Shown one piece after another: positions 22,301 through 27,908 of a stretch of DNA of 64,000 nucleotides. Every line of letters starts with the position of its first letter. Position 1 is the stretch's first letter. The translations under genes and the position numbers were made by a program. The DNA comes from Paramecium sonneborni (lineage: Eukaryota; Ciliophora; Oligohymenophorea; Peniculida; Parameciidae), in NCBI GenBank assembly GCA_905182985.1, contig CAJJDN010000100.1, positions 280,399-344,398 on the forward strand. The letters are read 5' to 3'. Below the pieces are notes generated by a model. It was not told the origin of the DNA. It did not search any database and was given only the letters and a program-made list of their open reading frames with translations.

Positions 22301-25300
22301 GATCAAGAGAGCCTATTTAATTATTTAGAAAGAATTAATTAATAGGCAATAATTTATATAAAACAATTTAATTCTAAAATAGAGGAAGTAGAAAAGTTTA
22401 GGCAAACTTATAATTATATTGAGTCATGTTTATATGCAGCTAAAATGATTAGTGTAACATTCGTAAGTTAGGATTAATAATAATTGAAAGACGAATAAAT
22501 TGGTATGCATTAATTTTATAATCTTATAATGAAAAAATTAGCAGTAGCTAAATGTGAAATTTAGAGTGATCAATAATATTTGAATGTTATGAAAGAATTT
22601 TATTAANATCAATCCAAAGATTTTATATAAAAAATTGATATATCAGAATTACTTTAGAATAAAAGTTACACTTAATAATTAGACTATTACCTTTCTTAAT
22701 TTAGATTCTAGCCTATTCATTTGATTCCACATGATTTAACAATTTAAGAACTTTCCATATAATTAAATGAAAAAATTGATTTAAAAGTGCTGAAAGAAAA
22801 TTAAATTAATGACATTACTGTCGATAAAGCTATATAATAACTTAATTTAAAGAAGCAATCTTAAAAACCTTTGTTAAATTATTTTTAAAGATATATTGGA
22901 GATACAAATAAGATACTGGAATAAATCAATAAATATTTGAATGTTGTTAAGGCAGATTAAGTTTATAAAACATTATTTATGGAATTAGATTTCTTATCTG
23001 AAATAGATGGTTTTGCATAATTTATCCTTTAAACTGATGGATTTTTATAATTGTTACTTGTTATGGCATTCTTAAATAATAAAAAAGAAGGTAAAGAAGC
23101 TTACAATAAAATTGTTTAATTAATGTATTCATCTATTACAATCTTGTTAGATTAAAATCACAATTTGAAAAATAAAGCTTTAATGAAATCAAAAATTTAA
23201 ATTAGAATAATTAATAGAATAGATTCTTACTTAAATTTATTGAATCAAAAGATTAAAACTTAAGAAACTTTAAAGGGAAAGCTTAAAGGTATTGGATATG
23301 GTGATATAAATTATAGGATTTCAGATTTAATTTTCAATCCAGATTAATAATTGGAAGGTGAAAAGAGATATATTGATATTCAACAAAGTTAGAAAGATAT
23401 CAATTTAGAGACTTTACTGAAATGTTTACGAATATTGATTGATTAAAATTATAAGGATCCTATGGTTATTTAATGCTTTCAGCTAACAAATATTTTAACT
23501 TTTTTAATTAAGTACTTTTAGAATATAAATATAACTTAAATTGAAAATTCTTAGGTTTTTGGTGAAGTCTTAAAAATAATAGAAATTTTGGCAAAATTTT
23601 CAGTTACTTTAGAACTATTCATAATTAATGATCAAGAGAGCCTATTTAATTATTTAGAAAGAATTAATTAATAGGCAATAATTTATATAAAACAATTTAA
23701 TTCTAAAATAGAGGAAGTAGAAAAGTTTAGGCAAACTTATAATTATATTGAGTCATGTTTATATGCAGCTAAAATGATTAGTGTAACATTCGTAAGTTAG
23801 GATTAATAATAATTGAAAGACGAATAAATTGGTATGCATTAATTTTATAATCTTATAATGAAAAAATTAGCAGTAGCTAAATGTGAAATTTAGAGTGATC
23901 AATAATATTTGAATGTTATGAAAGAATTTTATTAATAGACAAATATTTCAAATTCAGCAAAAATGTAAAGGTTGATATCAGAAATTTTAAATATAGGAGA
24001 AAATCTACCAATGGAAGCAACAAATTCTATATTTTTGAGATATGATCAAGATAGAATGGATTGTATGAGAACAATTATTTTTGGAGCAAGTGGTACACCA
24101 TATGCTTATGGAGCATTTTTATTTGAAATTTATTTTGGAGAAGATTATCCACATAAACCTCCAAAAATGAAATTATCTACAACTGGACATGGAAAGGTGA
24201 GATTTAATCCAAATTTGTATAATTGTGGAAAAGTGTGTTTGAGTTTATTAGGAACATGGTATGATAATTGGGTTCCAAATTTTTCAACTATTTTATAAAT
24301 TTTGATATCTATTTAATCAATGGTGATGTGGGAAAATGTCCTGTTTAATGAACCAGGATGGGAAATGTAAATGGGTACTCCATAAGGAGAAAAGAATAAT
24401 AGAGGTTATTGTAATTTTATTAAAGTTTAGAATATTAGATATGCAATGATTGAATAATTATAAAAACCTCCTAAAGGATTTGAAGAAGTTATTTAAAAGA
24501 GCTTTTATTTGAGGAAGGAGTTAATTAAAAAAGAAATTGAAGATTGGATTGAATAAGCAAATCTACCAGTTGTTTATTAATCAGTTAAAATATAAAATGA
24601 ATAAATATGCAATTATGATTCAGCACCTGGTTTATATAAATAAGAATTGATTAAAGTATATGATTAATTGAAAGTAGAATTAGAAAAGTTGAAACTAAAC
24701 ATTGGAAGGGATTTTTTAAATATTTCTAATGAAAATAAAAAGGAAATTGTTATAAATAAAAATTACGTTAATTATTAAGAATAATAATTGAGTAATATTT
24801 AAATGCCTCAAGGATTAAATTTAAATGATATAGATATAGGATATGAGGATAATTTATAATAAAGATAATTTGATTCAAATGATTAAAACTTATAAAATTT
24901 AATGAGTAGATATATTGGAGTAGTAGGTTTAGATGCAGTAAAAAGATAAAGTGAATCTACTGTTTTTATCCATGGTGTTAATGGATTAGGTATTGAAATA
25001 GCTAAAAATATTGTTTTGTCTGGTGTTAAAAAACTTATTATATATGATCCTACTCCTGTTTAATTATATGATTTAGGTACTAATTTCTATTTGAATTAAG
25101 AAGATATTAATCATAATAGAGATGAAGGAGTAATTAATAAATTAAAATATTTAAATCCATATGTAAGAATTGAGATCTTTTAAAAAAATATTTAAGAACT
25201 TAACTTAAATGAAATTTAAGTATTTATTACATAAGATCCAAAAATAGCATCTGAAATATCCAATAAAAATTAAGTGTCTGTAATCTTGGCTTAAACTAGA

Positions 25301-27908
25301 AATATATTTACAAGAATTGTAACAGATTTTGGTGATGAATTTAATATAATTGATAGAGATGGAGAATAATTATCAGAATTAATTATTAATGATATTCAAA
25401 ATAATTTAGTTACTTTTTAGAATTAAAATCATAATTTAATGGAAAATGATATTGTTTTAATCAAAGAAGTTAGATAATTTGATGGACAAAATGAATCATA
25501 TAATTAGAAATTTAAAATATAAAATGTAAAAAGAAATTCATTTGAATTGATAACTGATAAAATATTCTGTCCTTATAAAAGTCATGGAATAGCATATTAA
25601 TAAAAATAAACAATTAAATTGCCATTCTAAAGAATTGAAAATGTTTTAAATTCATTTTCTAATTTTAGTGAGAATATGGGAATGTTGGATAGAATAGGTG
25701 AGATTAAACGTGATCTAATTCATTTTTGTTTAAATAATATAGAATAATTGAATGATGATTGGAATTTAGATAAGATTACTCAATTCATTAATTATATGTT
25801 ATCCTGTCATATAGATAAAAGACTTAATGAATAATATAATGAAGATGTATTTAATAAATATAAAGAGGAATTAATTCCACTTTTAGTATTATTATCAATT
25901 AATACCTTATTTTAACCATTATGTGCATTTATTGGAGGTATGGCAGCTTAAGAGGCTCTGAAAGCAATAAATAAAAAATATATACCTATACATTAAGTTT
26001 ATGTGTAGTCATTTGATGATGTATTACCTTTTAAATTAAGGGAATTAAACACTTAATAATAAGAATATCAATAATTTTTATAGAAATATGGAATAAATTA
26101 GAATGCGAATTCTAGATATAAAGATTTAATAAATACTGTAGGAAGTATAGAAAAATTGTATAAATCAAATGTTTTTGTAATTGGGGCTGGTGCGATAGGT
26201 TGTGAATTATTAAAAAATTATGCTCTTTTGGGTATTGGTAAGAATGGTAGTATATATGTAACTGATCCTGATGTGATTGAGAATTCAAATCTTAGTAGAT
26301 AATTTTTATTTAGAGAAAAACACATTAGAAAACCGAAAAGTTTAACAGCAGCTGCAGTGGTGAAATCAATGAATCCTGATATTAAAATTATAGCTAGATT
26401 AGATAAAGTGTGTTAGGAGAGTTAAGAAATATATCATAATGAATTTTATAGATAAATGAATTGTGTGACTAATGCTTTAGATAATGTATAAGCAAGATTA
26501 TATATTGATTCAAAATGTGTTGAAAATGATATTAATTTAATAGATAGTGGAACATTAGGAACAAAGGGACATGTATAAACAATAATTGCAAAATAAAGTG
26601 AAAATTATGCAAGTTAATAAGATCCAGAATAAAATAATGATATTCCATATTGTACTTTAAGAATGTTTCCAGAAACTAATTTACATTGTTTAGAATGGGC
26701 AAGAGATAAATTTGAATAGTATTTCTATCGTAAACCAGCAGCTTTAGTATCATTAATGTAAGAAACTACTCCATAATAATAAAATATAGATTTAGCTTTA
26801 AGAATACTTAAGAAATATCCAAAATCATTTCATGAATGTCTTTAATTAGGAATATAAAAGTTCTAAAAATTATTTATTTGTGATATATAGACTTTGCTTG
26901 ATGCTTATCCTTTAGATACAATGACAAAGGAAGGTAAATTATTTTGGTCACCACCAAAGAGAATACCATAGAGTATTGAATTTAATGGATATGTTGCATT
27001 TAAATTTGTAGAATATTTTGCTATTCTTACTGCTTAAATTTATGGAATAGAAATACCATAATAATACGATTTAAGTAAATTAGACATATAGTTATAATAA
27101 TAATAAGTCAAAAAGAAAAAGAATAACTAAATAATAAAAGATTTAGAAATTAAATAAGAATAATAAAATAATTAATAAGAAAATGATGTAAAGAATTATG
27201 ATACATTAATAAATGAGGCAAGAATTTTATTAGATTAAATTAAACCTTGTTTACCATAACCATAATAATTTGAAAAAGATGATGATTTTAATCATCATGT
27301 ATCATTTATTACTTAAGCAACAAATGCAAGGGCTCTAAATTATGGTATTCAATAAGTAGATTGGATGTGGACTAAATTAAAAGCAGGCAGAGTATTTATA
27401 ATATCTATATATTTTAGATCATACCAGCTATGTCAACTACCACTTCTTGTATTGCAGGATTATAAACTCTAGAATTAATTAAAATATTATTGAATATAAA
27501 TTAACCTAGAAATACCTTTATTAATCTAGCCTTATCATCTTTTACGTAAAGTGAACCAGGAGAAGTTAAAAAGGTAATATCATTTATCATTTATTTTAGA
27601 AAATCTTGAAAAATGGAATGCAAATTACAATATGGTCTAAATTTATATTGAAAATTAATAAATATTTAGAACCATTGTCTTCTATTTTAAAATAATTAGA
27701 AACTTTATTTAATTCATCAATCATTAGTATTTAAAAAGGAGCTAAAGTTATATATCTTGTTTAGATGTTACCAAAAGATGATAAAGAACTATATGAATTG
27801 CTTAACTCTCCAATTTCCTTTTATATTTAATTTATTAATGGTGAATCATAAATAAATGTATAACTTTAAGATTCTACTTGGATTATGATTAATCTTATAA
27901 TTATTTGA
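19346..27908 (+). CDS. giant ubiquitin enzyme: BIRC6-type E2 domain fused to a complete UBA1/UBA6-type E1
   Basis: One reading frame without TGA runs from ATG 19346 to TGA 27906-27908, with introns 19680-19702, 20160-20184, 27392-27417 and 27574-27599 (23-26 nt). Collapsing the false duplication 22608-23935 gives about 2377 residues. Residues 1-1080 are helical and unassigned; no BIR domain seen. Residues about 1080-1260 are a UBC domain of the BIRC6/BRUCE class (TPYAYGAFLFEIYF, DYPHKPPKMKL-TTG, VRFNPNLYNCGKVCLSLL, FNEPGWE, and the family's C-terminal helices ending EDWIEQ); catalytic Cys at 24236-24238. After a 130-residue helical/Gln-rich linker, residues about 1390-2377 are a full E1: first adenylation half (VVGLDAVKR, GLGIEIAKNI), FIGGMAAQEALKA, second half (GAGAIGCELLKN, NSNLSRQFLF, ALDNVQAR), catalytic PYCTL Cys (26651-26653), AGRIIPAMSTTTS and a ubiquitin-fold domain. 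E1 and E2 active sites all look intact. Confidence 0.88.
21279..22606. repeat. left copy of a 1328-bp artefactual overlap
   Basis: This segment recurs, by eye identically, at 22608-23935 immediately after the single N at 22607. The offset of 1329 is divisible by 3, so the false copy stays in frame in the E2-E1 gene. Absence of any seen difference and the N point to unmerged contig ends, not a tandem duplication. Confidence 0.85.
22607..23935. repeat. N join plus right copy of the 1328-bp overlap
   Basis: 22607 is N; 22608-23935 repeats 21279-22606. The unique sequence resumes at 23936 exactly where the left copy is cut. Collapse this copy before using the E2-E1 protein. Confidence 0.85.

Follow-up and report, generated by a model that had tools for sequence, protein, structure and literature searches.

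A BIRC6-type E2 and a UBA6-like E1 within one open frame of Paramecium sonneborni and other ciliates

Results

Organization of the gene

This study concerns a gene of the ciliate Paramecium sonneborni in which a ubiquitin-conjugating enzyme (E2) is followed, in a single frame, by a ubiquitin-activating enzyme (E1). The gene lies on the plus strand of a 64,000-nucleotide stretch of contig CAJJDN010000100.1 (assembly GCA_905182985.1, positions 280,399 to 344,398), hereafter called the window; all coordinates are those of the window. Under the ciliate code (table 6), in which TAA and TAG encode glutamine and TGA is the stop, the frame is open from the ATG at 20399 to 27493, and from 23936 it passes both catalytic cysteines without a TGA. 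A first-pass annotation had described a single frame running from the E2 through a linker into the E1 with no intron between them, and had placed the catalytic cysteine codons at 24236-24238 and 26651-26653; both statements held. Its view that the protein begins at the E2 (23936) was abandoned, as the open frame reaches back to 20399 and further exons of the same gene reach back to 19346.

These N-terminal exons (19346-20398, plus strand, borders approximate) were located by tblastn of P0001, the P. sonneborni copy at locus C125: residues 1-266 of P0001 matched 19346-20169, and residue 263 onward matched from 20183. They are followed on the same strand by an arm region (20399-22606) and by the BIRC6-type E2 domain (23948-24553), whose catalytic Cys101 is encoded at 24236-24238. 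The linker (24557-24883) is modeled as a helix and then a low-confidence stretch, with a predicted local distance difference test score (pLDDT) below 50 at residues 257-287. The E1 half (24899-27905), identified by Pfam and by PDB sequence and fold matches, comprises IAD, FCCH, AAD, SCCH and a tail at the UFD position, with catalytic Cys906 encoded at 26651-26653, and is interrupted by two introns of 26 nucleotides, both GT..AG. Removal of the first (27392-27417) restores AGRIIPAMSTTT, which is also present in P0001, and removal of the second (27574-27599) restores the match to P0001. The C-terminal exon (27600-27908), which occupies the UFD position and ends in a TGA at 27906-27908, is 76% identical to P0001 over 95 residues.

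In the window frame, Pfam recognized UQ_con (2.7e-20), two ThiF stretches (3.9e-66), E1_FCCH (7.8e-10) and UBA_E1_SCCH (1e-56), all above the curated cut-offs; neither 4HB nor UFD was recognized by Pfam in this copy. In three relatives (P0013, P0010 and P0034), 4HB scored above the cut-off in every case, and UFD scored above it in P0034 and just below it in P0013 and P0010. The earlier description of the E1 as complete therefore stands for its two ThiF domains, FCCH and SCCH, but it requires removal of the two introns and does not extend to a recognizable 4HB or UFD.

The E2 half and the arm

The proposal that the E2 is of BIRC6 type was borne out. A phmmer search gave 205.8 bits to BIRC6 chains (5e-60, query residues 5-206), against 107.4 bits for UBE2O (7e-30) and 103.0 for UBE2Z (1e-28). 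A profile matched BIRC6 chain positions 4160-4818 at 4.6e-134, that is, about 660 residues around the E2. BIRC6 also ranked first among the fold matches of the arm model, and the stretch preceding the E2 has a predicted fold resembling the armadillo-type C-terminal arm of BIRC6. No BIR domain was found by Pfam in the window frame from 20399 or in P0001, P0007, P0013, P0010 and P0034; the window exons at 19346-20398 were not scanned directly. By fold comparison only, the arm may contain a TLDc-like domain. None of the 79 genome matches listed for PF07534, from a search scoring the best candidates only, lay on the contig of the window.

The E1 half

Among PDB sequences, the E1 half of the window copy matched UBA6 at 440 bits (1.5e-130), yeast Uba1 at 433 (1.9e-128) and human UBA1 at 398, and was far weaker against the SUMO E1 (2e-34) and the NEDD8 E1 (3e-23). 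Slower-evolving relatives discriminated more clearly. The E1 of P0013 scored 701 to UBA6, compared with 627 to human UBA1 and 637 to the E1 of PDB 9qgg; the E1 of the Tetrahymena protein P0010 scored 636 to UBA6 and 560 to UBA1; a 25-row profile scored 1087 and 1016, respectively. When 11 fused E1s were compared with ten reference E1s, both sets hand-chosen, a UBA6 was the top reference for all 11 queries, by a small margin for P0001.

In two unrooted trees, the fused E1s formed one clade (support 100) apart from UBA1, including the UBA1 of Paramecium itself. The first tree held 64 rows, 28 of them fused and 17 ungrouped. The second, with 47 rows (21 fused), dropped 14 of those ungrouped rows, including the six that had fallen within the fused clade. 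The separate UBA1 genes of Paramecium (C88 and C74) clustered with other UBA1s, and P0124 from Trichoplax, which its source calls only an E1, also fell among the UBA1s. Derivation of the fused E1 from the Paramecium UBA1 was considered and discarded: a joint clade was rejected by the approximately unbiased test (p-AU 0.00013). The first unfused E1 with a name among the 120 best rows for P0034 was one from Balamuthia mandrillaris called UBA6 (P0199), which suggests that UBA6 is older than usually stated.

Copies in the genome and distribution among ciliates

A search of the P. sonneborni genome for the BIRC6-type E2, in which 36 candidates were scored, returned eight strong matches (E 3.3e-72 or better; the next was 8e-8), and every one lay upstream of an E1 SCCH match on the same strand. 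At all seven loci other than that of the window, both cysteine motifs fell within one open frame containing no N. No stand-alone BIRC6-type E2 was found among the 36 candidates. The ratio of nonsynonymous to synonymous substitution rates (dN/dS) was calculated for five copy pairs that share members, as point values without a significance test. Between the window copy (C100) and C125, it was 0.21 for both the E2 and the E1 and 0.24 for the linker; the linker value was 0.04 for C31/C38, 0.11 for C116/C114 and 0.38 for C31/C116. This shows that the linker evolves as coding sequence in most pairs (four of five). The E1-type family PF10585 had 19 matches in the genome, fragments included, on 14 contigs. 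Two more divergent E1-like loci (G000:C9:57254-58012 and G000:C195:20312-21061) lie on contigs with no E2 match.

The first-pass annotation had proposed looking for the same fusion in other Paramecium species, where it was indeed present. A protein search restricted to candidates of about 1,300-4,137 residues, a restriction that favors fusions, gave 74 matches, of which 71 carried both the E2 motif and an E1. The named carriers were P. sonneborni, P. tetraurelia, P. pentaurelia and P. octaurelia, together with Tetrahymena malaccensis, Tetrahymena utriculariae, Ichthyophthirius (whose entry is named a putative UBA6), Pseudocohnilembus and the colpodean ciliate Platyophrya. Many further carriers came from metagenomes, with GILK and COSAG06 as two deep-branching ones. 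Three records that are transcript assemblies by name, P0013 (Trinity), P0034 (GILK) and P0036 (MMETSP Platyophrya), span both halves, and P0132 (MMETSP Platyophrya) is another carrier of this kind. These results confirm that the fusion of a BIRC6-type E2 with a UBA6-like E1 is recurrent, with the E1 halves on one branch and only ciliates among the named carriers. The longest fusions, of about 4,000 residues (P0013, P0015, P0023, P0030, P0038 and P0042), also list a ZZ zinc finger, whose best stretch in P0013 is at residues 598-640. A search of viral contigs gave 22 pattern matches, none of which was confirmed.

The catalytic residues were strongly conserved. Of 218 gathered proteins, the window's included, 103 had both motifs; 102 of these kept the E2 cysteine and 100 the E1 cysteine motif. 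Across 54 aligned rows, the ten residues tested were invariant (E2 Asn91; E1 Arg325, Gln881, Cys906 and six adenylation-site residues). The E2 cysteine was present in 53 rows and the E1 cysteine in all 54, the window copy having both, and the linker, counted from E2 Trp204 to E1 Ser324, spanned 106-131 residues.

Assembly joins in the window

The window contains five single-N joins (22607, 28206, 50375, 54468 and 57467), each beside a duplication. Four of the duplications are exact over 1,126-1,898 bases; the remaining one, at 50375, is exact for 786 of its 1,437 bases. Such joins are what would be expected of overlapping contigs set end to end without merging, and they will disturb the gene models of this assembly. 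Two of them are close to the fusion. At 22607-23935, a single N precedes a second copy, exact over 1,328 bp, of 21279-22606, and at 28206-29523 a single N precedes a second copy, exact over 1,317 bp, of 26889-28205, the end of the E1. The artefact at 22607 lies inside the gene, upstream of the E2, and spares the junction; the frame stays intact across it because the copy offset, 1,329, is a multiple of three.

With such joins in the window, one of them within this gene, it had to be asked whether misassembly had brought two neighboring genes together. The chance of this is practically nil and the explanation is already refuted, as the block that holds the junction (22608-28205) contains no N, and the same fusion recurs at seven other N-free loci and in the records of other species. 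The fusion therefore withstood the check for assembly error. Elsewhere in the window, a seven-copy array with 53-bp spacing occupies 49213-49636.

Discussion

In this study, a ciliate gene was found whose single polypeptide combines a BIRC6-type E2 and a UBA6-like E1 with an arm predicted to resemble that of BIRC6. The polypeptide likely activates ubiquitin and hands it on to an E2, either its own or that of a partner copy; we place the probability of this reading at roughly 0.7. The E1 half would bind ATP and ubiquitin, adenylate the ubiquitin and form a thioester (E1~Ub) on Cys906. A tether of about 110 residues would then let the E2, through Cys101, reach the E1 Cys domain, either within one chain or between the chains of a dimer, and this E2 would thus be supplied without competition from the other E2s of the cell. 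The loaded E2 may finally modify substrates held by the arm, as does BIRC6, an E2/E3 hybrid, so that a single chain would combine E1, E2 and possibly ubiquitin ligase (E3) work. Charging of its own E2 in cis is plausible; judged from sequence, cis and trans transfer are indistinguishable.

Several observations weigh against this reading. Some concern the kinship of the E1. The fold matches of the window E1 half were Uba1 and UBA6, the best being yeast Uba1. When the main pieces of the seven other Paramecium loci were compared with a single UBA6 (fish) and a single UBA1 (insect), four favored UBA6 and three UBA1, and in the ten-reference comparison some UBA6s ranked under UBA1s. Twelve columns distinguish UBA6 from UBA1; the fused E1s agree with UBA6 at three of these, with UBA1 at four and with neither at five. 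The kinship with UBA6 implied earlier was thus upheld in part: slower-evolving relatives score clearly highest to UBA6, but the Paramecium copies barely discriminate. The phylogeny asked for earlier separated the fused E1s from UBA1 with full support. Since neither tree has a root and the diagnostic columns give a divided signal, we call the E1 half UBA6-like and not UBA6. Others concern the integrity and geometry of the chain. In the pair C140/C33, the linker dN/dS was 0.90 and E1 identity only 45%. The structure model had a predicted template modeling score (pTM) of 0.60. Pfam recognized no UFD in the Paramecium copies scanned. The UFD normally grips the E2, and one might guess that the need to capture an already attached E2 has been relaxed in Paramecium.

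The remaining contrary points are proteins in which the E2 is dead or missing. In P0007 of P. tetraurelia (2123 residues), the only one of the 54 aligned rows without the E2 cysteine, tryptophan takes its place and the E1 cysteine is intact. P0076 of P. octaurelia (999 residues), 82% identical to P0007, is annotated from a methionine that matches the window ATG at 24902 and has no E2; P0093 also starts at the E1. Since these two begin at the E1, an E1-only state is possible in some copies. The E2 half may be decaying in the lineage of P0007 and P0076 while the E1 stays, and in P0007 the loss of a working E2 beside an intact E1 is a hint that this E1 acts for other chains. Altogether, 13 proteins recorded without an E2 motif were closer to the fused E1s than to either UBA6 or UBA1. 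In one of them, P0085, Pfam does find an E2, and most of the other entries lacking the motif look cut, with starts that fall within the E2, linker or E1. In the first tree, six E2-less entries were placed within the fused clade, most of them looking cut as well.

These exceptions bear on how the fused enzyme is charged. The E1 could act mostly in trans, on the E2s of other copies or on other E2s, the fusion serving for co-localization and fixed stoichiometry. P0007 and P0076 fit this explanation, as does BIRC6, which in mammals is reported to be an antiparallel dimer (PMC10827748) and whose C-terminal arm the arm model resembles. It is nevertheless somewhat unlikely in our judgment, as the linker length is steady across the 54 rows and the E2 cysteine is kept in all but one of the 103 proteins. 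Much less probable is that the two halves are made separately, from separate transcripts or by cleavage, and are joined only in the frame of the DNA. The ATG at 24902 and the annotation of P0076 from the matching methionine would agree with separate products. The low linker dN/dS in four of five pairs argues against them, as do the transcript assemblies of other organisms that span both halves (P0013, P0034 and P0036) and the failure to find an unfused BIRC6-type E2 in this genome.

The modifier could also be a protein other than ubiquitin. This is improbable, if slightly less so than separate products: the SUMO and NEDD8 E1s match far more weakly than UBA6, and Gln881, invariant in 54 of 54 rows, aligns with Gln608 of UBA1, which we take to read Arg72 of ubiquitin. 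In its favor, E1-type loci are numerous in the genome (the 19 PF10585 matches noted above), and UBA6 is bispecific for ubiquitin and FAT10, as indicated by the title of PDB 7sol and by PMC11354881. Activation of ubiquitin, with transfer to an E2 in its own or a partner chain, remains our preferred reading.

A wider interpretation, which we put forward tentatively and at a little short of even odds, is that the protein is a one-molecule cascade, a ciliate BIRC6-type E2/E3 with a dedicated E1. The partnership of UBA6 and BIRC6 would then be much older than animals, and the fusion would have arisen a single time, at the base of the ciliates or earlier; under this interpretation, it is the closeness of the fused E1 to UBA6 above other E1s that would make the fusion a record of the old partnership. 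In animals, E1 and E2 are separate proteins. UBA6 and BIRC6 cooperate in mammals, according to PMC6863627 and PMC10827748, and their pairing acts in mammalian autophagy (PMC6863627); by their titles, PDB 9qgw and 9qim are UBA6-BIRC6 trapped complexes. The earlier statement that mammalian BIRC6 is charged specifically by UBA6 needs correction where animals at large are concerned, as BIRC6 is not strictly tied to UBA6 among them: the title of PDB 9qgg names a dUBA1-UbDha-dBIRC6 trapped complex, in which 'd' is taken as fly.

The fusion also has something to say about how old the pairing of UBA6 with BIRC6 is. It may further matter for the organization of ubiquitin transfer. Humans have two ubiquitin E1s and 40 E2s (PMC11354881), so the charging of E2s is a shared step; if our reading is true, an E1 wired to its own E2 would free one pathway from that step. 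Since both partners come pre-joined, the protein would lend itself readily to structural studies of E1-to-E2 transfer.

Comparison with known enzymes places the ciliate protein near several of them. It shares with BIRC6 (BRUCE/Apollon), a giant E2/E3 hybrid, the E2 domain, homology over about 660 residues and the predicted fold of the C-terminal arm; it differs in the lack of a BIR domain in the ciliate proteins scanned and in the E1 appended at the C terminus. It is also shorter, with 1,850-2,707 residues in the Paramecium and Tetrahymena proteins listed and about 4,000 in some relatives, compared with about 4,860-4,900 in BIRC6 chains. With UBA6, the E1 for ubiquitin and FAT10, it shares two ThiF domains, FCCH and SCCH, and UBA6 is the best match of the slower-evolving fused relatives; the ciliate E1 is fused behind an E2, and residue 881 is Gln where UBA6 has Glu. 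UBA1, the canonical ubiquitin E1, is of the same enzyme class with the same active-site residues, and yeast Uba1 scores close to UBA6 against the window copy, whereas the Paramecium UBA1s (C88 and C74) cluster apart from the fused E1s.

The first-pass annotation knew of no E2-E1 fusion of this kind. That claim has to give way to a bacterial precedent, since Cap2 of the cyclic oligonucleotide-based antiphage signaling system (CBASS) is a newly characterized E1-E2 fusion (PMC12355090); for eukaryotes it stands, with no described E2-E1 fusion recognized in the titles, abstract openings or passages of the literature searched, and with a prior mention elsewhere possible. No Cap2 chain was among the 50 matches listed for the ciliate E1 half. 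Like the ciliate protein, Cap2 has an N-terminal E2-like domain followed by an E1 in a single chain (PMC12355090). By the same source, however, Cap2 resembles E2-bound ATG7, has a wing domain and acts on a CD-NTase substrate, whereas the ciliate protein combines a two-ThiF E1 with a BIRC6-type E2. Because of these differences, the ciliate fusion is taken as independent of Cap2.

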